DNA of 64,000 nucleotides from Aeromicrobium camelliae (GTDB lineage: Bacteria > Actinomycetota > Actinomycetes > Propionibacteriales > Nocardioidaceae): positions 62,001 to 126,000 of the forward strand of contig NZ_RQJX01000004.1 in NCBI RefSeq assembly GCF_003850045.1, read 5' to 3'. The notes below the pieces were generated by a model, which had not been told where the DNA came from, did not search any database, and saw only the letters and a program-made list of their open reading frames with translations. The translations under genes and the position numbers were made by a program. This document shows, piece after piece, positions 6,810 through 50,257 of the stretch (within the stretch, counting starts at the first letter, position 1; each line of letters begins with the position of its first letter).

Positions 6810-7694
6810 GTGGCCGCCGTCGACATCGTGATCCCCTACTGGGGGGATCCGGACCTGCTGACGCTCACCGTGGACTCCGTCCTCGGGCAGGACGACGACG
6901 ACTGGACGTTGACGATCCTCGACGACCACTACCCCGATCTCACCGCGTACGAGCGGTACCGCGATCACCCTGACCCCCGCGTCACCTACGTCCGACACGA
7001 GCAGAACGTGGGGATCACCGCCAACTTCGCCCAGGCGGCGCAACGGGCGACCGCCGACTACGTCTGCATCCCGGGCAGTGACGACCTCTTCGACCCCGGT
7101 TACGTGCGCACCGTCAAGGGTGCGATCGCACGGCATCCGGGTGTCGACATCGTCCAGCCGGGCGTCCGCGTCATCGACCAGCACGGTGAGCCGTCGCTGC
7201 CGCTCGTGGATCGCGTCAAGCGCCGGATGCTGGCGCCGCGCGAGGAGACCGTCCTCGCCGCCGAGGACCTCGCGACGAGCCTCATCCGCGGGAACTGGCT
7301 GTACTGGCCCTCGCTGACGTTCCGCACCGAGACCCTGCGCCGGCACGACTTCCGTGACGGCTTCCCCGTCATCCAGGACCTCGCGCTGCTCATGGACATC
7401 GCGTACACCGGGGGGTCGCTCGTGTACACGCCGGAGGTCGCCTTCGCCTACCGCCGCCACGACGGAAGCGCGTCGATGGCGGCACTCGTGGGCGGTTCGC
7501 GGTTCCGCGACGAACGGCGCTACTACCGACTGGCGCACCGCCTCGCCGTCGATCACGGGTGGCGACGGACGGCGCGGGCCGCGCGGCTGAGGATCTTCTC
7601 GCGTCTCCACGCGGCGACGGTGCTGCCAAGGGCTCTGCTGCAGCGCGACGGACAGGGCATCCGCTCAGCGCTCGCGCATCTACTGGGTCCGTGA
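6810..7694 (+). CDS. Family 2 glycosyltransferase
   Basis: 294 residues. The GT-A fold begins with VDIVIPYWG (4-12); LDDHYPD (37-43) is the nucleotide-binding acidic loop and GSDDLFD (89-95) the DxD-like metal site. A basic C-terminal tail rich in Arg may associate with the membrane. No transmembrane helix is obvious, so it acts on the cytoplasmic face, probably adding a sugar to a lipid-linked cell-wall glycan. Its 3' end overlaps the convergent GT2 gene by 15 bases. Donor and acceptor are unknown. Confidence 0.85.
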   Translation: MAAVDIVIPYWGDPDLLTLTVDSVLGQDDDDWTLTILDDHYPDLTAYERYRDHPDPRVTYVRHEQNVGITANFAQAAQRATADYVCIPGSDDLFDPGYVRTVKGAIARHPGVDIVQPGVRVIDQHGEPSLPLVDRVKRRMLAPREETVLAAEDLATSLIRGNWLYWPSLTFRTETLRRHDFRDGFPVIQDLALLMDIAYTGGSLVYTPEVAFAYRRHDGSASMAALVGGSRFRDERRYYRLAHRLAVDHGWRRTARAARLRIFSRLHAATVLPRALLQRDGQGIRSALAHLLGP

Positions 7695-8429
7695 CCGGCG
7701 GCGCCTGGCCTCCAGCGCCAGGCGCAGCAACATGACCCGTGCGCGCAGCACGGGGCCGATCGCCCGCGGACGGGAGGTCGAGGCGTTGGTGTCGTGCAAC
7801 CGCCGCCAGACCACCACCTCGTCGAGATGACGGATCGATCGGTCGACGTTGGCGACGGTCGCGATCCACAGGTCGTGCGACTCGCCCAGGTACGCCGGCA
7901 GCGGCAGCACCCGCTCGAGCGCCGACCGGCGCAGCGCCATGGCCGAGCCGAAATACGGGATGACACCGGCCCAGATCCGCAGCAGATTGCGCCGATGCTG
8001 ACGCGACGTCGACGACGACAGGTGCCACGGCCGACGCCGCACGGGGGAGGGCAACGGCCGACGGTGCTCGAGGTCGACGACGTTGCCGACCGCCACTTCC
8101 GCCTCGCCGAGCGCCGCCACGAGCGCCTCGACCCGCCCTTGCGGCCAGATGTCGTCCTGGTCGCTCAGCACGAGATACTCGCCGCGCGCTGCACTGAGCG
8201 CCTCCCCGAAGGCGCCGACGTACCCGAGATTGCGAGCGGTGCGGCGCACGCTGATACGCGGGTCGCCGAACGATTCGAGCATCGCGAGGGTCTCGTCCGT
8301 GCTGCCGTCGTCGATGACGACGAGCTCGTCCGCCTCCGTGAGCTGGCTCAGGATCGAGTCGACCTGTTCGGCCAGGTACTTCGCCCCGTTGTAGGTCGCC
8401 ATGCACACGCTCACGCGTACCGAGCTCAC
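7680..8429 (-). CDS. Family 2 glycosyltransferase (rhamnosyltransferase-like)
   Basis: 249 residues. VSVCMATYNG (6-15) opens the GT-A fold, DDGSTDE (40-46) binds the nucleotide and LSDQDDIW (88-95) carries the metal-binding acidic residues; the DQDD form is common in rhamnosyl- and galactosyltransferases of wall polysaccharides. GTG 8429 has AAGAGGGG upstream. The gene diverges from the flippase gene at 8489, and a polysaccharide role follows from this context. Confidence 0.87.
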   Translation of the reverse strand: MSSVRVSVCMATYNGAKYLAEQVDSILSQLTEADELVVIDDGSTDETLAMLESFGDPRISVRRTARNLGYVGAFGEALSAARGEYLVLSDQDDIWPQGRVEALVAALGEAEVAVGNVVDLEHRRPLPSPVRRRPWHLSSSTSRQHRRNLLRIWAGVIPYFGSAMALRRSALERVLPLPAYLGESHDLWIATVANVDRSIRHLDEVVVWRRLHDTNASTSRPRAIGPVLRARVMLLRLALEARRRRSRTQ

Positions 8430-8474
8430 GGATCGCCCCTCTTCACGTCGGACACCAGGACTGGCGCGGCACCG

Positions 8475-8480
8475 TAGACT
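8475..8480 (+). promoter_or_regulatory. -10 hexamer of the flippase gene (leaderless)
   Basis: TAGACT, 8 bases before GTG 8489. Same arrangement as at 6796. Confidence 0.55.
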
Positions 8481-8488
8481 TCGGCTCT

Positions 8489-9724
8489 GTGCGCCGCTCC
8501 ATCACCACGAGGCTAGCGGGCTTCACCGGCGGGCCGGTGCTCGCCGCCTTCGCTCCGATGCTCATCCTGCCCGTCATCACGCGGGCCGCGCCCGAGGGCT
8601 GGGCCAGCTTCGCCGCGGGCCAGAGCATCGGCCTCATCGGCATGATCGTGATGATGTTCGGCTGGAGCATCGCCGGGCCGGTGCGTATCGCCCGAGCGGC
8701 CGACCAGGGCGAGCGCGCCCACATCCTCGCGGAGAGCCTCTACACCCGCGCGGTGGCCGCCGCGGTCGTGCTGCCGGTCGCGGCGCTCATCGCCGCAGCC
8801 GTCGCGGACCCGGCCTACCGTTTCGACGCCGTCGCGATCGCGATCGCGTCCGCCGTGGGCGGTTTCAGCCCGTCCTGGTTCTGCATCGGCGCGGGTCAGC
8901 CGGCCAAGCTCACCGTCTACGACGTGTCACCGAAGCTGGCTGCGGCCGCGCTCGCCGTCGTCCTGGTTCTCCTGACCGGGCAGATCACCTGGTACGCGGT
9001 GTTGCTCGCCGTGTTCTGTGCCGCCGCCTACCTCGCCCACGCGCGCCGGGAGATGCGCGGCCACCACAGCGGTCGCCTCACCGTGCGCGAGATCCGCAGC
9101 GCGTTGCGAGCGCAGCTGCCGACCGCGGCCATCGACACAGTCTCCAACAGCTACGGCGCGACTCCGGTGCCGATCGCGTCGGCGGGGCTGCCCGTCGTCG
9201 ACGCGAACCCGTTCGCGTCCGCGGACCGCGTCTACCGGCTGGGGCTGCTCGCGGTGGTGGCCTTCGGCAACGCCTTCCAGGGCTGGGTGCTGGAGAAGGA
9301 CGCGACCGACCGCACGGCGCGTCACCGGCTCGCGATCGTCTGCCATGTGGCGCTCGGAGCCGTCGGGGGTCTCGGTATCGCGATCCTCGGTCCGTGGGCC
9401 ACCGGCATCGCCTTCGGTCAGGACGTCAAGGCCACTCCCCTGGCCTGCGTGCTGTTCGGGCTGGCGTTCGTGTGCATCTCGTCTACCACCCCGTTCATCC
9501 GCAACGTCCTCGTGCCGCACGGACGGTTCCGACTCGTTCTGGCGGTCACCTGCGTGTCCGCGATCGCCGGACTCACGGTGATGATCTCCGGTGCCGCGAC
9601 CGGCTCGGCCACCACGATCGCGGTCGGAGTGCTGACCTCCGAGGTCATCACGATGACCGCGCTGGTCATTCCGGCCGCTCGGCTCCTGAAGCGAGAGGCC
9701 GCAGCCGCCAGCGCACGTCCATGA
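8489..9724 (+). CDS. Wzx-type polysaccharide flippase (MOP superfamily)
   Basis: 411 residues, strongly hydrophobic, with about 10-12 predicted membrane segments and short charged loops. The N-terminal helix contains FTGGPVLAAFAPMLILPV and a conserved-looking GWASFAAGQS loop, as in O-antigen/teichoic-acid exporters. It would flip a lipid-linked oligosaccharide assembled by the neighbouring glycosyltransferases. The last 59 bases overlap the convergent GT2 gene. Length is near the family norm of 400-480. Confidence 0.8.
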   Translation: MRRSITTRLAGFTGGPVLAAFAPMLILPVITRAAPEGWASFAAGQSIGLIGMIVMMFGWSIAGPVRIARAADQGERAHILAESLYTRAVAAAVVLPVAALIAAAVADPAYRFDAVAIAIASAVGGFSPSWFCIGAGQPAKLTVYDVSPKLAAAALAVVLVLLTGQITWYAVLLAVFCAAAYLAHARREMRGHHSGRLTVREIRSALRAQLPTAAIDTVSNSYGATPVPIASAGLPVVDANPFASADRVYRLGLLAVVAFGNAFQGWVLEKDATDRTARHRLAIVCHVALGAVGGLGIAILGPWATGIAFGQDVKATPLACVLFGLAFVCISSTTPFIRNVLVPHGRFRLVLAVTCVSAIAGLTVMISGAATGSATTIAVGVLTSEVITMTALVIPAARLLKREAAAASARP

Positions 9725-10634
9725 GGTCGGCCTGAACGCTGGCGGGCATGCGTCCGAGGCTCCGGCCGGATCCCCCGTCTCGCCATGCCCGCAGGACGAC
9801 CCGCAGCATCCGAGAGCGCGGCCGGGCGAAGGCGATGACCTCGACCAGGTGAAGCGCCTCCACGACGCTCGCGATCGTCAGCCGCCGACGGAACCGGCCA
9901 CCGTACGCCCGATTGATCACCCGCCGGTTGCGGACACGGTAGTAGTACCGGAACGGCGTACTGAGCGTGACCGCGGAGGGCAGCGGAGACCCCGCGAATC
10001 GGCCCGCCCACCACGGCCGGCGATAGGCCGCGCCGAGCCGGTGGCCGAGACGGGTTCCCGGCGCCGCGACCGGCGGCATCCCGGCCGCCTCGGCACGCAG
10101 TGCGTACTCCACGTCGACCAGGTCGATGAACAGGTCCTCGCGCAGCGGCCCGAGTCGGTCCCACGTGGACCGGGGGAGGTACGTCCCGGACTGGATGGGC
10201 TCGCGCGCGAGCAAGACCCCCGAGGGGTCGGTCGCCATCACCTGGCGAGTCTGGGACCAGAACTCGGGCACGGCGTACGAGACGTCGACTCCCTTCGCGC
10301 GCGCCTGCTCCAGCGCGTCACGCAGCGCCGCCACCATCCCCGCCGGGGGCACCGAATCCTGATCGAAGAGCACGACGGCCCCGGCACCGCGCTCGAACGC
10401 CGCCGCGATGCCGCGATTGAGTGCGGCGGCGATCCCGAGGTTGTCCGGCTGCCGGAACACCTCGACCCCCTCGTCGACCAACGCGGCGAAGACGTCCTCG
10501 TCGGGGTCGGGCCCGTGATCGTCCACGACGACGACGGCATCCACCTGCTCACGGATCGCCCCGACGTTCGCCAGGAGGGAGCCGTCCGGTGAGAAGACCG
10601 AGAGCACGGCCCACGTCGAGACGGGCTCAGACAT
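9666..10634 (-). CDS. Family 2 glycosyltransferase (rhamnosyltransferase type)
   Basis: 322 residues. VVVDDHGPD (35-43) and VLFDQDS (88-94) are the GT-A acidic loops; the FDQDS form and a long C-terminal region with basic and aromatic residues match rhamnosyltransferases such as the RfbF/RfbN group. ATG 10634 overlaps the stop of the DUF2304 gene by 8 bases, so it is translated from the same message. A longer open frame upstream is rejected because it lies inside DUF2304. Confidence 0.87.
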   Translation of the reverse strand: MSEPVSTWAVLSVFSPDGSLLANVGAIREQVDAVVVVDDHGPDPDEDVFAALVDEGVEVFRQPDNLGIAAALNRGIAAAFERGAGAVVLFDQDSVPPAGMVAALRDALEQARAKGVDVSYAVPEFWSQTRQVMATDPSGVLLAREPIQSGTYLPRSTWDRLGPLREDLFIDLVDVEYALRAEAAGMPPVAAPGTRLGHRLGAAYRRPWWAGRFAGSPLPSAVTLSTPFRYYYRVRNRRVINRAYGGRFRRRLTIASVVEALHLVEVIAFARPRSRMLRVVLRAWRDGGSGRSLGRMPASVQADLMDVRWRLRPLASGAERPE

Positions 10635-20001: not shown

Positions 20002-20138
20002 GGGCCAGCATCACGAGTCGGCATCCCGAGACGTTCTGCGACCGTGTCGCGGGCAGCAAGCCCCCTCTACCACCGACGAACGAAGAAACCAGCGCGACTC
20101 TCGACTAGCGAGCGTCGCGCTGGCTCCTTGCGTGGCAG

Positions 20139-20223
20139 CGGAGGATAGGGGATTCGAACCCCTGAGGGCGTTAACCCAACCCGCTTTCCAAGCGAGCGCA
20201 CTAGGCCACTATGCGAATCCTCC
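20139..20223 (-). tRNA. tRNA-Ser(GGA)
   Basis: 85 nt. The acceptor stem GGAGGAT pairs with ATCCTCC with discriminator G at 20139. The anticodon stem CTCGC/GCGGG closes the loop TTGGAAA with anticodon GGA (codon UCC). A long variable arm and a GGTTCGAATCC T-arm confirm a serine tRNA. CCA is not encoded. Confidence 0.95.
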
Positions 20224-39706: not shown

Positions 39707-40493
39707 CCCACTGGCCGATGGCGGCCATCGCGCTGAGCACATCGTCGCGCCGGTCGCCGCCGTCAGGATCCCACTGCGCCAGCACGGCATACGCGATCGC
39801 GGCGTCGGGTCCGCCGACCACGCCGACATCGGCGCGAACGCCCGCATCGGTCCCGGTCTTATTGGCCAGGCGCACGCTGCGGTCCGCCTCCCGATGCGCC
39901 AGCGGGTCGAGACCGAAGGCCGAGGCGACCATGGAGAGGTCCGTGTTCACCCGCAGCCACCCGAGCACCTGTTCACTCACCGGCGCGGCGAGGACCTCTG
40001 CCCGCGACATCCGGACCATGAGGTCGGCCAGCTCCGCGGCGGTACCGACCGAGAGCGCGGGCGGGTCGTCGGGTGCCCGCTGATCGCGGACCCGGTCGAG
40101 CAGCCGCGAGTCGGTGAAACCGAGCGTCTTGGTCAACGCCGTGACCGACTCGAGCCCCAACCGCCGCAGCAGCGCATTGGTGGCGAGGTTGTCGCTGACG
40201 GCCCCGACGAGCCAGCACGCGTCCTCCGCGCTCAGTTCCGGTTGTCGCAGCACCTGCCAGAGGCCGGAATCGGCGACCTGGTCCTCGCGGTCCCGGCTCA
40301 GCTGCTCGGCAGGATCGAGCTCTCCTGACGCGAAACGCCGCGCCGCCTCGATGAGGACGAACAGCTTCCCGACGCTCGCAGTGGAGACGACGGCGTCCGG
40401 CTGGTGGGCCGCGATGACCTCGCCCGTGCGGGCGTCACGCAGGCACACCGACCACGACACTCCGGCAGGAAGGGCCGGCAGCGCCGGGGTCAC
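39678..40493 (-). CDS. Serine hydrolase with class A beta-lactamase fold
   Basis: 271 residues. Ser40-Val-Gly-Lys43 (SxxK), Ser99-Asp-Asn101 (SDN) and Lys211-Thr-Gly (KTG) are the three penicillin-recognising motifs. There is no signal peptide, and the omega-loop Glu of true beta-lactamases (ExxLN) is not found in the region after SDN, so antibiotic hydrolysis is doubtful. GTG 40493 overlaps the LLM oxidoreductase stop (GTGA), so the two are translated together. A peptidase or esterase role in the cytoplasm is possible. Confidence 0.82.
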   Translation of the reverse strand: MTPALPALPAGVSWSVCLRDARTGEVIAAHQPDAVVSTASVGKLFVLIEAARRFASGELDPAEQLSRDREDQVADSGLWQVLRQPELSAEDACWLVGAVSDNLATNALLRRLGLESVTALTKTLGFTDSRLLDRVRDQRAPDDPPALSVGTAAELADLMVRMSRAEVLAAPVSEQVLGWLRVNTDLSMVASAFGLDPLAHREADRSVRLANKTGTDAGVRADVGVVGGPDAAIAYAVLAQWDPDGGDRRDDVLSAMAAIGQWVSGRLRRAD

Positions 40494-41512
40494 CGATTCG
40501 GTTCCCAGCCGATCGCCGGCAGGACGTGCTCGGCGAGCGCGCCGAGCAGTCGCGCGTTGTAATCCACGCCCAGCTGGTTGGGGACTGTGAGCAGCAGGGT
40601 GTCGGCCTCGCGTACGGCCTGATCCTGGGCGAGTTCCTGGGCGAGGGCATCGGGTTCGCCGACGTAGGACTTGCCGAAACGCGCGAGACCGCCGTCGAGG
40701 AACCCGACCTGGTCCTCTCCGGAGCGGTCGCCGAAGTACATGCGGTCGCGGTCGTCGAGGAGCGGGATGACACTGCGGCTCACCGAGACCCGCGGCTCGC
40801 GGTCCCATCCCGCCTCCGCCCACGTGCTCCGGAACCGCTGGATCTGTTCGGTCTGCAACTCGTCGAAGGGGACTCCGGTGTCCTCGGTCAGCAGCGTCGA
40901 GCTCATGAGGTTCATGCCCTGGCGAGCGGTCCACTCGGCGGTCGCCCGCGTGCCCGAACCCCACCAGATGCGCTCGGGGAGGCCGGGCGCTTGAGGCTGG
41001 ATCGGCAAGGGGACCTCCTGGCCGGTCATCTTCGGGTCGGACGTCGCGATGCCGGCGCCGGCGATCGCGGCGCGGAACAGTTCGGCGTGGGCGCGGGCCA
41101 TGTCCGCGTCGGTCAGGCCCTCCGGCGGCACGTGCCCGAAAGCCTCGTAACCGCGCTGAGCCGGCTCCGGTGACCCGCGGCTGATGCCGAGCTGGAGTCG
41201 CCCTCCGGCGATGAGGTCGGCCGCGGCGGCCTCCTCAGCCATGTAGAGCGGGTTCTCGTAGCGCATGTCGATCACCCCGGTGCCGATCTCGATGCGCGAG
41301 GTCCGCGCACCGATCGCCGCCAGCAAGGGGAACGGTGCGGCGAGTTGGCGGGCGAAGTGATGAACGCGCACGTACGCGCCGTCGATGCCGATCTCCTCGG
41401 CGGCGACGGCCAACTCGATCGACTGCAGCAGCGCATCGGCCCCGGTGCGGGCCTGCGAGCCCGGCACCGCCTGCCAATGACCGAAGGACAGAAACCCGAC
41501 TCGCTTCTTCAC
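40490..41512 (-). CDS. LLM-class flavin-dependent oxidoreductase
   Basis: 340 residues of the luciferase-like monooxygenase TIM-barrel family (VGFLSFGHWQ at the start, GGRLQLGISRGSPEPAQRGYEAFG in the flavin region). It uses FMN or F420; the sequence does not tell which. The downstream serine hydrolase is coupled. Upstream lies a 60-base inverted repeat. Substrate unknown. Confidence 0.87.
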   Translation of the reverse strand: MKKRVGFLSFGHWQAVPGSQARTGADALLQSIELAVAAEEIGIDGAYVRVHHFARQLAAPFPLLAAIGARTSRIEIGTGVIDMRYENPLYMAEEAAAADLIAGGRLQLGISRGSPEPAQRGYEAFGHVPPEGLTDADMARAHAELFRAAIAGAGIATSDPKMTGQEVPLPIQPQAPGLPERIWWGSGTRATAEWTARQGMNLMSSTLLTEDTGVPFDELQTEQIQRFRSTWAEAGWDREPRVSVSRSVIPLLDDRDRMYFGDRSGEDQVGFLDGGLARFGKSYVGEPDALAQELAQDQAVREADTLLLTVPNQLGVDYNARLLGALAEHVLPAIGWEPNR

Positions 41513-41544
41513 GACTTCACCCTACGCCGGGCACGCTCCCCACC

Positions 41545-41604
41545 AGATGTGGTCAGCACTGGGTCACCGAAGCTGGTCGAAGTGACCCGGAAGTGACCAC
41601 ATCT
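41545..41604. repeat. 60-base interrupted palindrome / hairpin
   Basis: Outer stem AGATGTGGTCA (41545-41555) / TGACCACATCT (41594-41604), a 5x5 internal loop, inner stem GGGTCAC/GTGACCC and a 14-base apical loop. It lies between the transaminase stop and the LLM gene start. It could end the transaminase transcript or be a mobile REP-like element; no second copy was noticed in the window. Confidence 0.7.
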
Positions 41605-41612
41605 CGCCGACG

Positions 41613-42737
41613 TCAGCGCACGGCGGTCGCGATGCGCGTGATGCCGGCTTCGAGGAGCTCGGGCGTGGTGGCGTAGTTGAGCCGGGCGTGCCGCCGGCCT
41701 CCCTCGCCGAACGGCAGCCCGGAGTTCAGCGCGACCCTCCCACGCTCGAGGATCCGGGCCGCGGGGTCGTCGCCCAGCGCGGCCGGGAACTCGAGCCAGG
41801 CGAGGTACCCGCCGGGGCCTTGCGTCCACCGGACGTCCGGAAGATGCGTGGAGAGAAGGCCGCGAAGGATCGCCCGGTTCTCCTCCAGATCACCGATGAG
41901 CGCGTTCAGCCACTCGCGGCCTTCGCTCACCGCGGCGACGTGCGCGGCCAGGCCGAACTGGCTCGCACCGTGGCCCGCGAGCGGCGGCAGCGTGGCGAGC
42001 TCGTCGGCTGCCTCCGGTCCGGCGAAGAGCAGACCCGCCTTCACGCCCGCCAGATTGAAACCCTTGGACGCCGAGGTGGCCACGTAGGACCGCTCGCTCC
42101 CGGCGACGGAGAGGAACGGCACGAACCCCGCAGGCACGAGCAGCGCGTGGATCTCGTCGACGAGCACGCGGGCGCCGCGCTCGGCGGCGATGCGCGCCAC
42201 GGCCTCGAGTTCGGCCCGCGTGTGGACCGCGCCGGTGGGATTGTGCGGGCTGCACAGCAGATAGGCAGCGCCGGGTCCGACGCGCCGGAGCACGGTGTCC
42301 AGTCGGTCGAGGTCGAGGCGGCCGTCCGGTCCGAGCGGCGCCGTTTCGAGCCGCCTCCCGGTCCACTCGATGACGTCGAAGAACGGCGGATAGACGGGCG
42401 GGTTGAGCACGAGGGGCGCCCCGGGTTCCGTGCTCAACTCGATGGCCGTGCGCAACCCCGTCATGACGTCGGCGACCTCGAGACCGGTCTCCGCGGAGGG
42501 CGCCCACCCCCAGCGAGCGGAAGCGAAATCGGCGAAGGCCCGCAGGTAGTGCCCCGACTGCGGGTACCCGACGTCTCCGCGCTCGAGCAGCGCGGTCACC
42601 GCCCGGCGCACCGGCTCCGGCGGCGCCACGTCCATCTCCGCCACCCACATCGGCAGGACGTCCGACGGGTACTCGCTCCACTTGAGGCTGGTGCGCTGAC
42701 GCAACTGCTCTTCGGTCATCTCCCGCAACGGCCGCAT
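41613..42737 (-). CDS. MalY/PatB-type PLP aminotransferase (C-S lyase)
   Basis: 374 residues, fold type I. PLP Lys225 (TSASKGFNLAG), SPHNPTG (163-169) and Asp194 (VLVDEIHA) are in place; LPMWVAEMDVAPP near the N-terminus is the MalY/PatB signature. Such enzymes cleave cystathionine or cysteine conjugates. It diverges from the isocitrate-lyase-like gene; 42738-42856 is the shared control region. Confidence 0.88.
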   Translation of the reverse strand: MRPLREMTEEQLRQRTSLKWSEYPSDVLPMWVAEMDVAPPEPVRRAVTALLERGDVGYPQSGHYLRAFADFASARWGWAPSAETGLEVADVMTGLRTAIELSTEPGAPLVLNPPVYPPFFDVIEWTGRRLETAPLGPDGRLDLDRLDTVLRRVGPGAAYLLCSPHNPTGAVHTRAELEAVARIAAERGARVLVDEIHALLVPAGFVPFLSVAGSERSYVATSASKGFNLAGVKAGLLFAGPEAADELATLPPLAGHGASQFGLAAHVAAVSEGREWLNALIGDLEENRAILRGLLSTHLPDVRWTQGPGGYLAWLEFPAALGDDPAARILERGRVALNSGLPFGEGGRRHARLNYATTPELLEAGITRIATAVR

Positions 42738-42783
42738 GCGTCCATCGTGCCCGCTCCCGCAACGGAACGGGCGAGGAAGGGCT

Positions 42784-42813
42784 TGACAGTGTGACGTGCA
42801 TCTCTCCTATGAT
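42784..42813 (+). promoter_or_regulatory. Strong sigma-70-type promoter of the lyase/hydro-lyase operon
   Basis: TTGACA (42784-42789), 18-base spacer, TATGAT (42808-42813). This is the closest match to consensus in the window. A start near 42820 gives a 36-base leader with GAGGAG (42847-42852). Confidence 0.8.
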
Positions 42814-42818
42814 CCGTA

Positions 42819-42840
42819 TTACGTAAAGCGTTCCGTAAAG
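42819..42840. promoter_or_regulatory. Repeated CGTAAAG boxes at the operon start
   Basis: CGTAAAG occurs at 42822-42828 and 42834-42840, 12 bases apart; the first overlaps the palindrome TTACGTAA (42819-42826). They lie at the predicted +1, where the IclR-family regulator encoded at the end of the operon could bind as a repressor. Confidence 0.55.
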
Positions 42841-42856
42841 TGAAACGAGGAGTTCG

Positions 42857-43723
42857 ATGCCCAACCGATTGCGCGCTCAGCTGGACGACGACCTGGTGAT
42901 CGCACCCGGCGTCTGGGACGGGCTCACCGCGGTACTCGCCGAGCAGGCCGGGTTCTCCGCGCTCTGCGCGTCCGGCTTCGCGATCTCCGCGTCGCTGGGC
43001 TACCCCGACGCGGAGCTCTACACGATGACCGAGAACCTCCAGGCGGTGCGCACGATCCGCGAGGCCAGTTCCCTGCCGCTCGTCGCGGACATCGACACCG
43101 GCTACGGCAACGCCGTCAACGCGGTGCGCACCGCCCGTCGCTTCCTCGACGCCGGGGTGGAAGCGGTCTTCATGGAGGACCAGGAGTCGCCGAAGCGATG
43201 CCCGCTGACCACCGGCGCCGCCCTCCCGCTTCTCGACGTCACGACCGCTGCCGGAAAGGTACGGGCCGTGAAGGACACCGTCGGCGATGAGGTCCTCGTC
43301 ATCGCCCGCACCGACGCGCGCGGCGACGAGGCGATCCGGCGCGCGCTGGCCTACGTCGAGGCCGGAGCCGACCTCATCATGCCGGTGACCAAGACCTTCA
43401 GCACGGTCGAGGAGTGGGCACGCTGCCATGCCGAGGTGGGTGTCCCGCTGATGGCCACGCTCACCGCGTCGGCGTGGACGGAGAAGGCGTTCACGCCCGC
43501 CGTCATGCGCGAGATCGGTGTCGGGCTGGCCATCTTGCCCACGCAGCTCCTGATGACCGTCGCCGGCGCCGCTGAGCGCACGCTGGCGCGCCTCGCCCGC
43601 GGTGACGACCCCGCCACCGTCGGCACGGCAGAGAACGCGATGGCGCACGATCGGTTCGTCGATCTCATCGGGACCGCGGACGTCGAACGGCTCCAGCACA
43701 CCTACCTGCCCGAGAGCGCTTGA
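42857..43723 (+). CDS. Isocitrate lyase/PEP mutase-superfamily lyase
   Basis: 288 residues. TIM barrel with metal ligands ADIDTGYG (Asp78, Asp80) and MEDQ (Glu107). The catalytic loop is SPKRCPL: Cys115 is kept as in isocitrate, methylisocitrate and dimethylmalate lyases, but the usual GH after KRC is replaced by PL. It should cleave a hydroxy-di- or tricarboxylate by retro-aldol/Claisen reaction to an oxoacid and a second acid. ATG 42857 has GAGGAG at 42847. It opens a five-gene cluster with a hydro-lyase, a permease and an IclR regulator. Confidence 0.88.
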   Translation: MPNRLRAQLDDDLVIAPGVWDGLTAVLAEQAGFSALCASGFAISASLGYPDAELYTMTENLQAVRTIREASSLPLVADIDTGYGNAVNAVRTARRFLDAGVEAVFMEDQESPKRCPLTTGAALPLLDVTTAAGKVRAVKDTVGDEVLVIARTDARGDEAIRRALAYVEAGADLIMPVTKTFSTVEEWARCHAEVGVPLMATLTASAWTEKAFTPAVMREIGVGLAILPTQLLMTVAGAAERTLARLARGDDPATVGTAENAMAHDRFVDLIGTADVERLQHTYLPESA

Positions 43724-43732
43724 GGGGGACCG

Positions 43733-45001
43733 GTGCCACAGACCATCGTTGAGAAGATCCTCGCGCGCACCGCAGGCCGTGACGAGGTCCGCGCCGGCGA
43801 GAACCTGCCGTGCCGGCCGGATTACATGATCGCCTACGACTTCCCGGGCTATACCGACGTGATGTTCCGGCAGATGCACGACGACTTCGGCATCACGAAG
43901 CTCGCCGAACCCGAGCGCTATCTCGTGTTCATCGACCACATGCTCACGCGCGGCGACCAGCGCGAACAGGATGTTCACCGTGTCACCCGAGAGTGGTGCG
44001 AGTTCTACGGCATCCGGCTGCACGAGGCGGACGGCATCGGCCATCAGGTCATGGTCGAGCGCGGCTACGCAGCCCCGGGCAACTTCCTCATCCACTTCGA
44101 CGGACACATCTCCGGCGCGGGCGCGTTCAACGCCCTCGGCTGGGGCGTGCGGCGCGACCTCCTCGAGGGCTGGGTCAAGGGTGAGCTCTTCCTCGACATC
44201 CCCGCCACGACCCGATTCGAGCTGGTCGGCGAGTTCCAGCCCGGCGTCGACAGTCGCGACCTGGTTCACGAGATCATCGCGCGGCTGGGCGCCGACGGCT
44301 GCGCCCACCAGGTGATGGAATTCGGCGGGCCCGGCGCACGCGCGATGAAGATCGACCACCGCCAGGCGCTGTGCGGCATGGCGATGTTCACCGGCGCGGT
44401 GTCGGCGATCTTCGAGCCCGACGACACGATCCTCGAGCGGGCCGGGCAGGTCACCGAGGGGGAGCTGGCCCCGGTCTGGCCGGACCCCGACGCGACGTAC
44501 GCGGCCGTCCACACGATCGATCTGTCGCAACTGCGACCCCGCGTCGTCACGCCGGGATCCGCCCGAGCGGCCAACACCAAGCTGGCCGACGAGCTCACCG
44601 GAACCGCCGTCACGAAGGCCTTCATCGGGTCCTGCGCGAGCGGGCGGATCGAGGACATCCGCGCGGCCGCGTCCGTCCTCGACGGGCGCACCGTCGCACC
44701 GGGGGTGACACTGAACGTCGTCCCGACGTCGAAGGCGGTCCACGATCAGGCCGAGCGCGAAGGACTCCTCGACGTCCTGCGGGCGGCCGGCGCGCAGATC
44801 GCGCAATCGAGTTGCGACTTCTGCTTCGGCTACCAGAAACCCCTGCAACCCGAGGACGTGTGCATCTCCACGGGGGTCCTCAACATCTCCGGACGGATGG
44901 GCAGCACAGACGCGGGCATCTACATGGGTTCGGCGTTCACCGTGGCGGCGAGCGCCGTGAGCGGACACATCAACACAGCGGCGGAGGTGACGCGCGAATG
45001 A
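43733..45001 (+). CDS. Aconitase-superfamily hydro-lyase, large subunit (LeuC/DmdA-like)
   Basis: 422 residues, the length of LeuC/HACN proteins. The [4Fe-4S] ligands are Cys301 (GSCASGR), Cys361 and Cys364 (SSCDFC). DGHISGAGAFNALG replaces the usual DSHTSTHGAFGALA, and STGVLNISGR replaces STSNRNFEGR, so substrate-contact residues differ from isopropylmalate isomerase. GTG 43733 is nine bases after the lyase stop. It should dehydrate or isomerise a hydroxyacid before or after the lyase step. Relatives include 2,3-dimethylmalate dehydratase. Confidence 0.85.
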   Translation: MPQTIVEKILARTAGRDEVRAGENLPCRPDYMIAYDFPGYTDVMFRQMHDDFGITKLAEPERYLVFIDHMLTRGDQREQDVHRVTREWCEFYGIRLHEADGIGHQVMVERGYAAPGNFLIHFDGHISGAGAFNALGWGVRRDLLEGWVKGELFLDIPATTRFELVGEFQPGVDSRDLVHEIIARLGADGCAHQVMEFGGPGARAMKIDHRQALCGMAMFTGAVSAIFEPDDTILERAGQVTEGELAPVWPDPDATYAAVHTIDLSQLRPRVVTPGSARAANTKLADELTGTAVTKAFIGSCASGRIEDIRAAASVLDGRTVAPGVTLNVVPTSKAVHDQAEREGLLDVLRAAGAQIAQSSCDFCFGYQKPLQPEDVCISTGVLNISGRMGSTDAGIYMGSAFTVAASAVSGHINTAAEVTRE

Positions 45002-45537
45002 CCGGCTACCCACCTCCCCCCGATCTCATCGAGGGCCGCGTCGCCTGGGTGTTCGGCGACGACTTCGACGTCGACCTCGTCATCGGCGTCGAGAACATCA
45101 AGACCTACGACGCGGACGAGCTGCGCGCCGTGACGATGAAGGCGTACGACGAGAGCTTCGTCGACCGGGTGCGTCCCGGCGACGTCATCGTCGGAGGCCG
45201 GAACTTCGGCTACGGGCACCCGCACTATCCACCGATGGTGGCGCTGCGCAACCTCGGCATCGCCGCGGTGCTGGCCGAGTCGTTCTCGCCGGGGTTCTGG
45301 CGCGGCGAGACCTACAACGGGATGCCCTTGCTGACGGTGCCGGGCATCAGCCAGACGGTCCGCCTCGGCGACCCGGTCACGGTGGACTGGCGCACGGCGA
45401 CGGTTCACATCCAGCGTGCGGACGGCACGCAGACTCTCACGGGCCAGGCGCCCAGCGATCGGGTTCAGCGCATCATCAGCGCCGGCGGATCGTTCAACCT
45501 CATGCTCGCCGAGCACGCACAGGAAGAAAGCAGATGA
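44998..45537 (+). CDS. Aconitase-superfamily hydro-lyase, small subunit (LeuD/DmdB-like)
   Basis: 179 residues. Swivelling domain opening VFGDDFDVDLVIGVENIKTY, an altered form of the GDNIDTDxIIPxRY motif. The loop NFGYGHPHYPP (69-79) stands where LeuD and aconitase have NFGCGSSREHA; the Ser and Arg that bind the substrate carboxylate are missing. ATG 44998 overlaps the large subunit stop by 4 bases, so a 1:1 complex is expected. Substrate must differ from isopropylmalate. Confidence 0.85.
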   Translation: MTGYPPPPDLIEGRVAWVFGDDFDVDLVIGVENIKTYDADELRAVTMKAYDESFVDRVRPGDVIVGGRNFGYGHPHYPPMVALRNLGIAAVLAESFSPGFWRGETYNGMPLLTVPGISQTVRLGDPVTVDWRTATVHIQRADGTQTLTGQAPSDRVQRIISAGGSFNLMLAEHAQEESR

Positions 45538-46847
45538 CCGACACCACCTCGTCCTCGACGTCGACTCCGCCGGCGGTCTCCGAATCGACGGCGCGACGCG
45601 CTGCCGTCGCCGGCGGCGTCGGCACGCTGATCGAGTACTACGACTTCAGCGTCTACGCGTTCCTCGCCCTCACCATCGGCCCGCTGTTCTTCCCCAGCGA
45701 CAAGCCGGCCGTCTCGCTCCTGCTGACCCTCGCGGTGTTCGGCTCCGCCTACGTCATGCGCCCGCTCGGCGGCTGGTTCTTCGGCCGACTCGGCGACCGG
45801 CGCGGCCGGCGCCACGCGCTCGTCATCACCGTCGTCGCGATGGGCATGTGCTGCGCGCTGCTCGGCCTGCTGCCGACGTATGCGCAGGTCGGCGTCCTCG
45901 CGCCGATCCTCCTGGTGCTGATCCGGCTCGCGCAGGGCTTCTCCGCCGGCGGCGAGATCGGCGGTGCGGCGACCTACATCGCAGAGTCCTCGCCCGCGGG
46001 CCGCCGCGGCATCTACGGCTCGCTGACGCCCATCGGCTCCACCCTCGGCTTCGCCGTGGCCGCGACCATCGTCGGCATCGTCTCGCAGGTCACCACCGAC
46101 GAGCAGATGGCGGCGTGGGGCTGGCGCATCCCGTTCCTCATCTCGATCCCCCTGGCCGCGCTGTGCCTGTGGGCTCGGGTGAAGCTCGAGGACACGCCGG
46201 AGTTCGAGGAGATGGCCGACAAGGCCGAGGTCGTGCGCAGCCCGCTCATGCAGGTGGTGCGCGAGCACCCGATGTCGGTCCTGCGGGTCATCGGCATCGC
46301 GATCGCGATGAACGGCACCGGCTACATCGGCCTGACGTACTTCAACATCTACCTCGTCGACGAGGGGTTCGCGCAGCAGTCGGTGTACTGGACCTCCGCG
46401 ATCGCCATCGCCCTGGCGTGCGCATCGTTCCCGGTCGCCGGGATGCTGACGGACCGGTTCGGTCGTCGCCCGGTGCTCCTCGGCGCGTATGCCGCGTACG
46501 TGATCATCGCCTGGCCGGCGTTCGCGATCATGGGCGCGACGGGCAGCCTCCTCGTGGTCGCGCTGGTCTACATCGTCTACATGATGTTCAACGGATTGGC
46601 GCAGGTGCCGGCGTTCCCGCAGTTCACCGAGCTGTTCCCGCGTCAGGTGCGGTACACGGGCGTCGCGCTCGGGTTCAACATCGGCACGATCGTCGCCGGT
46701 GGCAGCGCTCCGTACATCGCCGCTCAGCTGGTGGAGTCGACCGGCAACTCGATGGCACCGGCGTACTGGGTCATGGCCGTCGCGCTCATCGGCATCGTCA
46801 CCGTCTCGACGATGCGCGAGACCGGCAAGGCGGCGCTGCCGAAGTGA
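45534..46847 (+). CDS. MHS-family MFS permease for the lyase substrate
   Basis: 437 residues, 12 helices. GTLIEYYDFSVYAFLALTIGP and GRLGDRRGRRHALV are metabolite:H+ symporter motifs (family of citrate, alpha-ketoglutarate, shikimate and dicarboxylate carriers). ATG 45534 overlaps the small-subunit stop (ATGA). Its place in the operon suggests it imports the hydroxyacid that the hydro-lyase and lyase degrade. A strong hairpin follows. Confidence 0.9.
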   Translation: MTDTTSSSTSTPPAVSESTARRAAVAGGVGTLIEYYDFSVYAFLALTIGPLFFPSDKPAVSLLLTLAVFGSAYVMRPLGGWFFGRLGDRRGRRHALVITVVAMGMCCALLGLLPTYAQVGVLAPILLVLIRLAQGFSAGGEIGGAATYIAESSPAGRRGIYGSLTPIGSTLGFAVAATIVGIVSQVTTDEQMAAWGWRIPFLISIPLAALCLWARVKLEDTPEFEEMADKAEVVRSPLMQVVREHPMSVLRVIGIAIAMNGTGYIGLTYFNIYLVDEGFAQQSVYWTSAIAIALACASFPVAGMLTDRFGRRPVLLGAYAAYVIIAWPAFAIMGATGSLLVVALVYIVYMMFNGLAQVPAFPQFTELFPRQVRYTGVALGFNIGTIVAGGSAPYIAAQLVESTGNSMAPAYWVMAVALIGIVTVSTMRETGKAALPK

Positions 46848-46858
46848 CGAGGTGACTC

Positions 46859-46892
46859 GTAGCGCCGCGGGACCGTGGTCCCGCGGCGCTAC
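46859..46892. terminator. Near-perfect 34-base palindrome after the permease gene
   Basis: GTAGCGCCGCGGGACC (46859-46874) pairs with GGTCCCGCGGCGCTAC (46877-46892) across two bases. It probably terminates the lyase operon. TACTCT overlapping its right edge may be the -10 of the IclR gene, so it could also be an operator. Confidence 0.75.
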
Positions 46893-46935
46893 TCTGTCCG
46901 CACAGCAGCAGCCGAGCACAGAAGGGAGTGCCGCG

Positions 46936-47727
46936 GTGGCACCCGAGCCCGACGCGACCCAGGGCATCGATCAACGCAACTACGTGGGCTCGGTGCTCAA
47001 GGCGTGTCGGTTGATGGCGTACTTCGACCATCAGCGACCCGAACTCACCTTGGCCGAGGTTGCCGAGCGCTCGGGGATGAACAAGACGACGGCCTACCGC
47101 CTGCTCAACACGCTGGTCATGGCCGGTTGGCTCGCGCGCAGTGAGAGCAACGCGTACCGCCCGACGATGCGCGTGTTCCAGATCGGCTCCGTCGCGCTCG
47201 CGTCCACGAACCTTCCCACCGAGGCCAAGCCCGTGCTGCGCTCCCTCGCCGACCGATTCGGCGACACCGCGTACCTGATGGTGCCGAGCGGGCGGAACGC
47301 CGTCTGCATCGACGCGATCACCGGGGACTCGCCGGTGACGGTGAACGCGGTCGCCGTAGGGTCCAGCCTGCCGCTGCACGCAGCCGCGGGCCCGGTCACC
47401 ATGCTCGCCTTCGTGCCGGGCCTCCTCGAGGAGGAGTTGAGCCACGACGATCGTGAGCCGTTCACGCCGGGCACGATCACCGACCCCGAGCACCTGCGTT
47501 CCGTGGTGGAGAAGGTGCGCGAGCAGGGCTACGCCGTCAGCGAAGGCGACTTCCTCTCCGACGTCGCCGCCGTCGCCGCCCCGATCTTCGGCTCCGACGG
47601 CGCCTGCGTCGGCACGATCAGTCTCGGCGGAACGGTCGACCGCATCCGCGGCGCACGTTTCGACGATATCGTCGCCGGCGTCGTCGCAGCAGGCAAGGAC
47701 CTCACCGCCCGCCTCCAGGGCCGCTGA
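46936..47727 (+). CDS. IclR-family regulator of the lyase operon
   Basis: 263 residues. HTH segment LTLAEVAERSGMNKTTAYRLLNTLV and an effector domain with SSLPLHAAAGPVTML. GTG 46936 has GGGAG upstream. It follows the hydro-lyase operon on the same strand and most likely binds the CGTAAAG boxes at 42819-42840. The effector is probably the imported hydroxyacid. Confidence 0.87.
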   Translation: MAPEPDATQGIDQRNYVGSVLKACRLMAYFDHQRPELTLAEVAERSGMNKTTAYRLLNTLVMAGWLARSESNAYRPTMRVFQIGSVALASTNLPTEAKPVLRSLADRFGDTAYLMVPSGRNAVCIDAITGDSPVTVNAVAVGSSLPLHAAAGPVTMLAFVPGLLEEELSHDDREPFTPGTITDPEHLRSVVEKVREQGYAVSEGDFLSDVAAVAAPIFGSDGACVGTISLGGTVDRIRGARFDDIVAGVVAAGKDLTARLQGR

Positions 47728-47739
47728 CCAGGCCCTGAT

Positions 47740-48417
47740 TCAGACGCGCTCGGGGGCGTCAGCGGACTCGATGACTTCCTTCGCTCGGCGAAAGGCGCCG
47801 ATCGTGGCCTCGCGCCCGATACGGCCAGACGCCTGATCGAGTCGGTTCCAGGCCAAGTTGCTGGGGTGCGGGCACCGCACCGTAGCGATAGGCAGAGGCG
47901 CAGCCGCATCCCAAGCGCGCTGTGCCTCCTTGCCGAGCAGGACGACGAGTTCAAGATTCGGCAGCAGACCAACGAGCTCGACCAGGTAGGTACCCGCCCG
48001 ATGCGCTTGCGCTTGGAAGGTTCGACGTGGTTGATGCGCTTGGTCGGGATCCTTGACCCACCATGGGATGACGTTCCAGTGAAGAGCACGCTGGTAGTCA
48101 AGCCCCGACGCTTCATACGCCTTGGTGCAGTTGTGGGCGGTCTGGTCGTTGTTGTCGATCGAGATGAACCCCGAGCCGTCCGCGACTGCCGACGGGTCCT
48201 GCAGCAGAAACAACACCTGCGCCTGAATGCCTCCCGATCGCGGGTCGAAGGCTGGCACCTTCTCGCCGGTGCGCTCGGCCACCGAGGTTGCCCAGGCGTG
48301 GAGGGGTCCAATATGAGCACGGTCGAGTTGAGCGCGCCGCTCCGCGATCGAACCCGGCCTCTCGCGCTCGTCCAGCAAGGTCCCGTTCTGCCAGGCCAGC
48401 CGGTTGAACACCGTCAT
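47740..48417 (-). CDS. Uracil-DNA-glycosylase-superfamily protein
   Basis: 225 residues. LFLLQDPSAVADGSGFIS stands where UDGs have the GxDPYH-type motif, NVIPWW is the family's hydrophobic core strand, and CPHPSNLAWN is the HPS/T motif before the DNA-intercalation loop. DNDQT-like Asn/Asp residues follow the first motif. It could excise deaminated or alkylated bases, but the altered catalytic motif leaves activity open. It overlaps the DUF2277 gene by 4 bases. Confidence 0.75.
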   Translation of the reverse strand: MTVFNRLAWQNGTLLDERERPGSIAERRAQLDRAHIGPLHAWATSVAERTGEKVPAFDPRSGGIQAQVLFLLQDPSAVADGSGFISIDNNDQTAHNCTKAYEASGLDYQRALHWNVIPWWVKDPDQAHQPRRTFQAQAHRAGTYLVELVGLLPNLELVVLLGKEAQRAWDAAAPLPIATVRCPHPSNLAWNRLDQASGRIGREATIGAFRRAKEVIESADAPERV

Positions 48418-48713
48418 GACGTCGGGGCCGTGCGGATGCGTACTTCGCGCTCCATGCGTTTCTCGTGGCGCTGGCGCCCTTTGACCGCCTCCAGCTCGCG
48501 ATTCTTGGGCGGCGCCTTGGTCACGAGATCGTCGAGCAGCCGGCGCGTGGCGTGGGCGATCTCGTCGACAGCCCGGTCGAACGCCTCTTCGTTCGCGCGG
48601 GAAGGGCGGGTCGATCCGCTGACCTTCCGAACGAACTGCAGAGCGGCTTCGCGGACCTCGTCATCGGTGGTGGGCGGGTCGAAGTTGTGAAGAACCCGGA
48701 TGTTCCGGCACAT
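48414..48713 (-). CDS. DUF2277 family protein
   Basis: 99 residues. MCRNIRVLHNFDPPTTDDEVREAA is the conserved DUF2277 opening. The rest is helical and basic, ending in KGRQRHEKRMEREVRIRTAP. The stop overlaps the UDG-like start (ATGA), so the two are coexpressed. Function unknown; a DNA- or RNA-linked role is an inference from its partner. Confidence 0.88.
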   Translation of the reverse strand: MCRNIRVLHNFDPPTTDDEVREAALQFVRKVSGSTRPSRANEEAFDRAVDEIAHATRRLLDDLVTKAPPKNRELEAVKGRQRHEKRMEREVRIRTAPTS

Positions 48714-48805
48714 GACGTGATGCTACGCGCGGACGTCGGACCTGGGGAAGCGGAAAAGGCCCCCGATCCGGCTGAGAATCAGCAGGATCGAAGGCCTTTC
48801 CATGG

Positions 48806-48892
48806 CGGTGGCGGTGGGATTTGAACCCACGGTGGGTTTGACCCCACACATCATTTCGAGTGATGCACCTTCGGCCGCTCGGACACGCCACC
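48806..48892 (-). tRNA. tRNA-Ser(CGA)
   Basis: 87 nt. Acceptor stem GGTGGCG pairs with CGCCACC with discriminator G at 48806. Anticodon stem CATCA/TGATG encloses CTCGAAA, anticodon CGA (codon UCG). A long variable arm and T-arm GGGTTCAAATCCC are typical of tRNA-Ser. Confidence 0.95.
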
Positions 48893-49039
48893 GGGAGGTA
48901 CCTTACCGGACCGGCCAAGACGCCAGAAAACCGGGCCCGTCCCGGTCTCCGTCGCTCACCGACGCGCTGATTGTGACGATGGGGAGCCCGAATGACCGGC
49001 ATCGCAGCCGAAACGCCACGCTCTCGGCGTGGTCGCGGG

Positions 49040-49612
49040 TCAGTCTTCCGGCACTCCGACGTCGAAGAGCGCCATCGTCTGCGCGAGCATCCGGTAGTAG
49101 CCGACGAGGACCGACAGTTCCACGAGCTGCTGTTCGCCGAGGACTGCCACCGCGCGGGCGTAGTCCTCGTCGCCGAGAGTCTCGCCCCGCAGGAGATCGG
49201 TGGCGAGCGCATAGGCCGTCGACTCGGCCTCGTCCGCGCCAACGAACTCGTCGGTGCGGATCGCGTCGATCTCCTGGCGGGCGAGTCCAGTGGCGAGCGC
49301 GATACGCTCGTGCGCCCACCACTGGAACTCACTGCCCAGCCGATCCGCGACGAGGAGGATGACGATCTCGCGGATACGGTCGGACAGGCTCGTCCGGAAG
49401 CGCAGCGCGGCGCCGAGCTCCTGCAGCGGCCCGCCGACACGCGGCGCGTGCAGCATCACCCCATACGGGCCGTTCAGCGACCCGTCGGCCTGCGCCAACG
49501 GGAAGAGCTGCGGCCCGCGGGAGCGGTCACCGCCCGCGATCGCCTCGTACACCTCACGCTGATCCTCGTCGAGCTCACTCGGAACGAGCTTGCGCAACCT
49601 CACCGGCACCAC
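49040..49612 (-). CDS. AhpD/carboxymuconolactone-decarboxylase-fold protein
   Basis: 190 residues. LSDRIREIVILLVADRLGSEFQWWAHERIALATGL is the AhpD-like core, but the Cys pair of AhpD (CxxC) is absent and EFQWWAHE takes its place, as in many CMD-family proteins of unknown role. GTG 49612 has GAGAGGATCAG before it. It is not part of the pca pathway, whose decarboxylase is in PcaL. Confidence 0.82.
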   Translation of the reverse strand: MVPVRLRKLVPSELDEDQREVYEAIAGGDRSRGPQLFPLAQADGSLNGPYGVMLHAPRVGGPLQELGAALRFRTSLSDRIREIVILLVADRLGSEFQWWAHERIALATGLARQEIDAIRTDEFVGADEAESTAYALATDLLRGETLGDEDYARAVAVLGEQQLVELSVLVGYYRMLAQTMALFDVGVPED

Positions 49613-49648
49613 CTGATCCTCTCGTCGAGGACCACCGTAGGGGACCGG

Positions 49649-50257
49649 TCAGCGCAGGTCCGGGTTGCTGATCGAGAGCATGGTGTCGCTGAACAGGTCG
49701 ATCTCGTCCTCACGCGTCCGACCCGTGCCGCCACCGCCGAGCATGCTCGCGAGCTCGCCCGTCGCGCGGTCGATCCGGCGTTGCAGGGCGTGCTCGCCCG
49801 AGGAACCCCAGTCGTGCGGCGAGGCGAAGATGCCCGTCGGCACGATGAAGGCCTGCAGGTAGGAGAACAACGGGCGCAGCGCCATGTCGATCGCCAGCGA
49901 GTGCCGCGCGGTACCGCCGGTCGCCGCGAGCAGCACCGGCTTGCCGATGATCGCGTCGGTCTCCATGGCGTCCACGAAGGACTTGAACAGGCCCGGGTAG
50001 GACACCTTGAAGATCGGCACGGCGACGATCAGCGCGTCGGCGGCGGCCACCTGGTCGTACACGTGCTGCAGCCGCGCGGAGGCGAAGCCGGTGAGGCTCG
50101 CGTCGGTGATGTCGTGAGCAAGCTCGCGCAGGCTCACGACCTCGACGCTGACGTCCCCGAGGCGCTCGCGGGCCGACGCGACGACCTTGTCGGCGAGCAT
50201 GCGGGTGGTCGACGGCTCGCCCAGCCCGGCGGACAGGGCGACGATCGAGACGGTCAT
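49649..50257 (-). CDS. NADPH-dependent FMN reductase (CE1759 type)
   Basis: 202 residues, flavodoxin-like. VALSAGLGEPSTTRMLAD at the N-terminus and VAVPIFKVSYPGLFKSFVDAM for the FMN site. It supplies reduced FMN to the LLM oxidoreductase at 50254, whose stop overlaps its start by 4 bases. The same pair is conserved in Corynebacterium (CE1758/CE1759). Confidence 0.88.
   Translation of the reverse strand: MTVSIVALSAGLGEPSTTRMLADKVVASARERLGDVSVEVVSLRELAHDITDASLTGFASARLQHVYDQVAAADALIVAVPIFKVSYPGLFKSFVDAMETDAIIGKPVLLAATGGTARHSLAIDMALRPLFSYLQAFIVPTGIFASPHDWGSSGEHALQRRIDRATGELASMLGGGGTGRTREDEIDLFSDTMLSISNPDLR

Follow-up and report, generated by a model that had tools for sequence, protein, structure and literature searches.

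A five-gene unit in Aeromicrobium camelliae encodes a hydro-lyase of the aconitase superfamily in which the conserved serine loop GSSRE is replaced by GHPHY, together with a partner lyase of the isocitrate lyase (ICL)/phosphoenolpyruvate (PEP) mutase superfamily whose loops are also changed. The unit lies in the 64,000 nucleotides at positions 62,001 to 126,000 of contig NZ_RQJX01000004.1, a stretch called the window here and numbered from its first letter. The finding is carried by the gene content of the unit, the folds modelled for the lyase and the small hydro-lyase subunit, the co-occurrence of the genes across genomes, the residue changes that related loci share and a conserved inverted repeat upstream. 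We consider it probable that this is an inducible catabolic operon for the import, hydration or dehydration, and C-C cleavage of what would be a hydroxy- or unsaturated di- or tricarboxylate; the mechanism class is fairly secure.

Results

Active-site changes in the hydro-lyase

Related units were seen in Actinomycetota, Pseudomonadota and one member of the Bacillota. We assembled a set of 88 loci from the window, 7 plasmid loci (a search of plasmid records with the whole small subunit gave 34 records, and 7 of the best 8, which had 45.9-69.5% identity, were used) and the best 80 of the 285 relatives found by a profile search of contigs. The closest of these best 80 of 285 is from Aeromicrobium piscarium, its small subunit being 88% identical to that of the window; another genome of the same genus has a small subunit of likewise 88%.

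In the small subunit, NFGYGHPHY stands in place of NFGCGSSRE, with no gap in the alignment, in 87 of 87 cases, a count biased by the use of NFGYGHPH as one of the two patterns in the contig search. A search of the taxonomic family with the whole small subunit gave 13 hits, among which GHPHY was present in all nine with at least 60% identity and GSSR in the remaining four; GHPHYP was also found in 7 of the 7 plasmid loci obtained first. Lys35 occurs in 87/87; the corresponding residue is Arg in a methanogen homoaconitase and Val in an isopropylmalate isomerase. The large subunit, aligned to 5acn and 4nqy, keeps the cluster cysteines Cys301, Cys361 and Cys364 in 87/87; D123-G124-H125 is likewise invariant (87/87) where the relatives shown have DSH, and VLN or TLN replaces the NRN of relatives, the following GR being kept. 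The arginine lost with NRN aligns with Arg447 of aconitase.

The three cysteine ligands, the fold of the small subunit and, as far as it can be aligned, the large subunit place the enzyme in the aconitase superfamily. In the available part of PMC8184944, a serine alkoxide is described as the general base in aconitases, and a counterpart is said to be needed in aconitase X; the accessible text of PMC7308503 calls GSSRE highly conserved in the small subunits of isopropylmalate isomerases and related aconitases. The small subunit in the window lacks this serine and the GSSRE loop, which otherwise mark the superfamily outside AcnX. Judged from the alignments, the group breaks the rule of the general-base serine while it retains the cluster ligands. 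The sequence-only reading that drew attention to the unit had proposed an altered hydro-lyase and lyase; both sites are indeed non-canonical, but it pointed to the lyase loop and understated the hydro-lyase, in which the loss of GSSRE is the larger active-site change.

Profile scores set the enzyme apart from the characterized families. The closest approach to any cut-off was to TIGR02087 (LeuD/DmdB family), which the small subunit narrowly missed (107.7 against 108.95 bits). The equivalog cut-offs for isopropylmalate isomerase and homoaconitase were far from reached by the large subunit (LEU2, 245.4 against 610.65; HacA_Meth, 230 against 550) and by the small one (leud, 75.9 against 245.85; HacB_Meth, 90.8 against 230 bits). 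Aconitase X is no better a match, with a Pfam AcnX score of 24.7 against 31.5 bits and a loop without serine. The AlphaFold model of the small subunit (mean predicted local distance difference test score, pLDDT, 92.6) is most similar to small subunits of methanogen isomerases (template modelling (TM) score 0.83/0.88, about 33% identity), and aconitases are weaker matches.

A decayed or pseudo-enzyme was rejected because different phyla share the altered residues. We also rejected an enzyme of leucine biosynthesis or the aconitase of the tricarboxylic acid cycle, as the genome encodes two further members of this type with weaker matches, one in a 474-amino-acid frame accompanied by a small-subunit match and one in a 977-amino-acid frame, and their sizes would fit LeuC/LeuD and AcnA. 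Plasmid records annotate the proteins as '3-isopropylmalate dehydratase', 'aconitase family protein' and 'isocitrate lyase/PEP mutase family protein'; the first of these names is probably wrong as to function.

Active-site changes in the lyase

The lyase has the alpha/beta-barrel fold of the ICL/PEP mutase superfamily, with its Mg2+-binding Asp pair and its catalytic Asp, Cys and Arg. D51, D78, D80, E107, K113, C115 and R151 are each kept in 84/84 lyases of the related loci and correspond to the Asp, Cys and Arg that the available part of PMC7609661 describes for the ICL mechanism. The loop PKRCPL, in which KRCPL had been read instead of KRCGH, is borne out as a group feature: K-x-C-P is present in 84/84, and the next residue is Ile, Leu, Ala or Val in 83/84. 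At the position of the Glu in the FPE motif of PrpB stands Val or Ile (V177 in the window), followed by Thr or Ser and then by Lys or Arg, each in 84/84. Among the 50 structural matches listed for the AlphaFold model (mean pLDDT 91.6), TM scores were 0.83-0.90 and identities 26-34%, and the matched structures are labelled as carboxyphosphonate phosphorylmutase, PrpB, PEP mutase, petal death protein and dimethylmalate lyase. Among the matches listed, neither this lyase nor, by its best matches, the small subunit has a close homologue of solved structure, which speaks for the sequence-only reading.

The best NCBIfam match of the lyase is PrpB (TIGR02317), which might suggest a variant of the 2-methylcitrate cycle with the hydro-lyase as methylaconitate hydratase and the lyase as PrpB. 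However, the score of 186.5 bits is far below the cut-off of 354.4, KRCGH and the FPE Glu are lost, a permease forms part of the operon, and the genome of A. camelliae (3.06 Mb, listed as 100% complete) has no match to PrpD and, apart from the lyase itself, none to the ICL family or of the PrpB type. We rejected this cycle as most improbable, and the likeness to 2-methylcitrate breakdown that had been pointed out earlier is disfavoured.

Co-occurrence and related loci

By tblastn, both hydro-lyase subunits were found in 88 of the 88 loci and the lyase in 85; gene clustering gave 87 large subunits, 87 small subunits and 84 lyases. Four loci are without a lyase gene call: L029 carries a partial lyase at a contig end, L066 starts with the large subunit near its contig end, L081 shows no lyase, and the fourth is the Polaromonas sp. 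P1-6 plasmid (L010). In L010, the gene for the large subunit (7654-8986) is broken into two frames and a lyase match lies in two pieces about 20 kb from the hydro-lyase; this copy looks decayed.

Within the taxonomic family, for which 341 genomes were searched, exactly the same nine genomes have a small subunit of at least 60% and a lyase of at least 57% identity; the next-best proteins have at most 46% (lyase) and 37% (small subunit). In 396 genomes of the phylum, small subunits of at least 70% identity and lyases at E <=1e-45 share the same two, the own genome included; small-subunit matches at E <=1e-8 occur in 164/396, and all others among the matches listed have at most 44% identity. Because close relatives of the two proteins are found in the same genomes, more often than chance would give, the unit is patchy in distribution and behaves as a whole; co-occurrence in other genomes, which had been suggested earlier as a check, is borne out. 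Of the 87 gene blocks that could be delimited, 82 contain a transporter (MHS in 60, LIV-type ABC in 17, a TTT binding protein in 7) and 5 have none of these types; an IclR regulator is present in 78. These block counts are not independent, since many of the loci are close relatives (Nocardia, Rhodococcus).

Sister systems and phylogeny

In each of the six distant pairs examined both enzymes are canonical, the lyase reading KxCGH and the small subunit GSSR (G339 (L107, L125), G215 (L106, L128), Pseudoroseomonas (L143), Rhodococcus (L144), Roseomonas (L146) and Burkholderia plantarii (L147)), and in G023 and G015 a lyase match lies about 2 kb from a GSSR small subunit. The existence of canonical pairs indicates that units in which a LeuCD-type hydro-lyase is paired with an ICL-type lyase extend beyond the present group, and the agreement in six of six shows that the changes in the two enzymes go together. 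In trees of the sampled rows, midpoint-rooted and with several long branches, one branch separates the 22 variant rows from 12 (large subunit) or 11 (small subunit) others, with support of 100/100 and 99/98; within these rows the variant hydro-lyases appear as one clade.

A second serine-less form of hydro-lyase was seen in the nearest outgroup row, L148 (Roseomonas marmotae p1318-1, 7992-9990), which was grouped with the canonical rows in the tree. This LeuCD-like pair has a GH-HNH loop and DEGN for DSHT, no ICL-type lyase match was found in its 17 kb, and its neighbours are fumarate hydratase genes, a 2-hydroxyacid dehydrogenase, a CoA transferase and TTT binding proteins. L148 may be an intermediate, though its branch is long.

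Locus organization and upstream control

The five genes are open, and their order and families agree with the sequence-only reading (Table 1). The first four overlap or lie at most 10 bases apart. Pfam and NCBIfam place all five proteins in the expected superfamilies, and none of the five reaches an NCBIfam cut-off. The permease scored 409.7 bits against the cut-off of 443.45 for the MHS subfamily TIGR00883, with nearly the whole model covered, and its Sugar_tr match is above the Pfam gathering score; the regulator exceeds the gathering scores of HTH_IclR (58.3 bits) and IclR_C (102.8 bits).

Table 1. Coordinates of the unit and its upstream elements within the window
Feature	Position	Strand	Remarks
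Half-site ACGGAACG	42762..42769		Upstream of -35; inverted copy of CGTTCCGT at 42829-42836, 59 nucleotides between arms
Promoter-like TTGACA (42783), 19 nucleotides, TATGAT (42808)	42783..42813	+	11/12 consensus matches
Putative IclR operator CGTAA-AGCG-TTCCG	42822..42835		One mismatch to CGGAA-N4-TTCCG; between -10 and lyase start
ICL/PEP-mutase superfamily lyase, 288 amino acids	42857..43723	+	Loop PKRCPL; D51, D78, D80, E107, C115, R151 kept
Aconitase/LeuC-type large subunit, 422 amino acids	43733..45001	+	GTG start; Cys301, Cys361, Cys364 kept; DSH to DGH; NRNF to VLNI
LeuD/DmdB-type small subunit, 179 amino acids	44998..45537	+	GSSRE to GHPHY(P); recognition loop YLR/YLV to NIK
MHS-type major-facilitator permease, 437 amino acids	45534..46847	+	Pfam/NCBIfam matches
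IclR-family regulator, 263 amino acids	~46936..47727	+	Start chosen by codon model

With spacers of 15-20 nucleotides on both strands, the promoter-like element was the only site in the whole window with at least 10/12 consensus matches, in line with the earlier description of it as the best promoter there; ten mononucleotide shuffles together gave two sites of 10/12 and none of 11/12. A stock promoter scanner limited to spacers of 16-18 nucleotides found no promoter in 40000-50000, which marks the 19-nucleotide spacing as suboptimal. The inverted repeat CGGAA-N4-TTCCG was discovered and counted in one set of 87 upstream regions, many of them from close relatives; it is exact in 20 and has no more than one mismatch in 44. 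Copies with at most one mismatch occur in only 0.6% of the 3339 control windows and in 0.5% of shuffles, and 35 of the 44 sit 26-41 nucleotides before the first gene. Repression by IclR would be the simplest reading, and the upstream half-site is possibly a second contact for the regulator.

A gene at 41613-42737, whose product we take from its sequence to be a MalY/PatB-like aminotransferase, diverges from the unit. The same gene cluster also precedes the unit in A. piscarium (L013) and is not recurrent in the other loci. A tRNA-Ser gene (cga, 48803-48892) lies just downstream of the unit, and a second one (gga) is found at 20138-20223; they may point to a setting of integration.

Discussion

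Our results are best explained by an inducible catabolic route in which the MHS permease would import an organic acid and the heterodimeric hydro-lyase, which belongs to the LeuCD/DmdAB branch of the aconitase superfamily and presumably carries a cluster of the [4Fe-4S] type, would add, remove or move water. The role of the serine alkoxide would probably be taken over by a residue of the conserved loop His74-Pro75-His76-Tyr77. The lyase, dependent on Mg2+ and Cys115, would then split the product, envisaged as a 2-hydroxy acid bearing a beta-carboxylate, into a 2-oxo acid and a carboxylic acid. Because the GH of KRCGH and the FPE Glu of PrpB are replaced, mostly by hydrophobic residues, the released acid is less likely to bear a distal carboxylate as succinate does. 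In the absence of a bound inducer, IclR probably sits on CGGAA-N4-TTCCG across the start region and represses transcription.

The metabolism of the host bears on the products. No match to malate synthase was found in the genome, and glyoxylate carboligase is represented by four matches below the cut-off (the best at 385.1 against 711.2 bits); matches to methylmalonyl-CoA mutase are present. By this survey, the genome lacks the glyoxylate shunt and the methylcitrate dehydratase of these families, and the missing malate synthase makes a pyruvate-type product appear likelier than glyoxylate. One candidate substrate is a branched C4-C6 dicarboxylate (citraconate, citramalate or 2,3-dimethylmalate), which would be hydrated to citramalate or dimethylmalate and cleaved to pyruvate and acetate or propionate. 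The DmdAB/Dml pair of nicotinate fermentation is the model for such a route, in which the same two enzyme superfamilies act without coenzyme A (CoA). Pyruvate and propionate would suit a genome with no malate synthase match and with methylmalonyl-CoA mutase, and the hydrophobic residues of the lyase loop would suit a small leaving acid. However, the LeuD/DmdB profile is missed, if narrowly, both GSSRE and KRCGH are lost, and the invariant Lys35 at the position of the homoaconitase Arg suggests an extra negative group on the substrate. We regard this route as unlikely, if by no means far-fetched.

No CoA ligase or synthase gene was called within the unit, as had been noted before, and to this extent the proposed use of the substrate without CoA activation holds; it is weakened by the AMP-forming acyl-CoA ligase present in 35/87 related blocks, which could act on the product or on an upstream substrate and may, in some relatives, convert the released acid to its CoA ester. 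Such a ligase would have a place in the scavenging of a 2-alkylmalate such as 2-isopropylmalate, which would be isomerized to a 3-alkylmalate and cleaved to glyoxylate and an alkylacetate such as isovalerate. The LeuCD-type enzyme and the hydrophobic lyase loop are consistent with this scheme as well, but the GSSRE loop of isopropylmalate isomerases is absent, and the genome offers neither a malate synthase match nor a glyoxylate carboligase over the cut-off, so that we consider it quite doubtful.

Accessory families in the gene blocks, labelled from ten example proteins, point in another direction. Besides the ligase, an alpha/beta hydrolase occurs in 5/87 blocks, a KSTD-like flavin adenine dinucleotide (FAD) dehydrogenase in 11/87, and an MBL-fold protein with an FAD-linked oxidase in 4/87. 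The hydro-lyase may have departed from hydroxy-acid chemistry altogether, for instance to dehydrate a ring- or lactone-derived acid or to perform some other isomerization, with the lyase taking its product and the MBL-fold, hydrolase and FAD enzymes of other loci feeding it. The loss of both the Ser base and the NRN arginine would fit such a departure, as would the His-x-His motif of L148 in the absence of a lyase match. Against it, the commonest block type (31/87) has MHS and none of the labelled ligase, FAD, hydrolase or MBL genes; there, an imported ready-made acid would be enough. We see this departure as an unlikely but serious candidate.

Several observations weigh against our preferred explanation, a catabolic operon for an imported hydroxy- or unsaturated acid. 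Given the ligase, KSTD-like and MBL-fold/oxidase genes of other loci, the full route may involve more than five genes, or different taxa may use different substrates. In the 20.5 kb of L081 the hydro-lyase is present without a lyase match, and L122 (G165:C155:2511-3326) encodes an ICL-family lyase of 35-36% identity with a KRCPF loop and no hydro-lyase match within its 3.8 kb, which shows that such a loop by itself need not go with the hydro-lyase. As to control, the repeat was counted where it had been found; it has two mismatches in 18/87 regions, among them that of the nearest relative, A. piscarium L013, and at least three in 25/87, and none of the Pseudomonadota and Neobacillus regions has it with two mismatches or fewer. 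Finally, glyoxylate could be used through aminotransferases.

Beyond the single operon, we see about an even chance that, in at least three phyla, one branch of the aconitase superfamily has exchanged its Ser base for a His-x-His(-Tyr) loop in concert with a lyase carrying K-x-C-P and Val/Ile-Thr/Ser-Lys/Arg, and that it serves a catabolic pathway for a class of acids whose breakdown has not been described; L148 would hint at an older, lyase-free His-x-His stage. The serine base is presented as common to aconitase chemistry in the part of PMC8184944 available. If our proposal is true, this conserved multi-phylum clade means that a [4Fe-4S] hydro-lyase scaffold can work with a base other than serine, and since the partner lyase has changed along with it, there are fewer candidate substrates to consider.

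Comparison with known systems

No description of the gene set was found in the open PMC literature searched, the scope of which excludes most subscription journals. In its available part, PMC9875883 does not fully settle what becomes of itatartarate and raises, as speculation, a hydratase resembling aconitase, to which no link from the operon could be made; the portion of PMC9804861 at hand names dimethylmalate lyase only in a methylcitrate cluster. The permease is related to TcuC of tricarballylate utilization (264.3 bits, below the cut-off of 445), and the flavoprotein of L018 is a weak match to TcuA (87.8 against 369 bits), but the unit in the window contains no dehydrogenase.

The lyase resembles PrpB (E. 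coli 1mum and others) in its fold (TM score 0.86 to 1mum) and in its Mg2+ ligands and catalytic Asp, Cys and Arg. It differs in having only 26-32% identity, in the change of KRCGH to KRCP plus Ile, Leu, Ala or Val in its group, in the replacement of the FPE Glu by Val or Ile with two extra residues, and in its score. Similarly, the DmdAB/2,3-dimethylmalate lyase system pairs a LeuCD-type hydro-lyase with an ICL-superfamily lyase, and the lyase structure 3fa3 is matched by fold and profile at 28% identity; however, both enzymes in the window have altered loops, the dimethylmalate lyase loop being presumably of the KRCGH type, and the operon adds a permease and IclR.

With LeuCD and HACN (4nqy, 4kp2, 3vba, 2pkp), the hydro-lyase shares the two-subunit architecture, the three cluster cysteines and the small-subunit fold, whereas GSSRE has become GHPHY, DSH has become DGH and NRNF has become VLNI, and no equivalog cut-off is reached. 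In being a divergent branch with a changed substrate site, it resembles aconitase X as described in the accessible text of PMC8184944. Aconitase X, however, keeps the serine base (Ser70, with S70A almost inactive, according to the same text), whereas the hydro-lyase in the window has dispensed with the serine and retained the aconitase-type Cys ligands.

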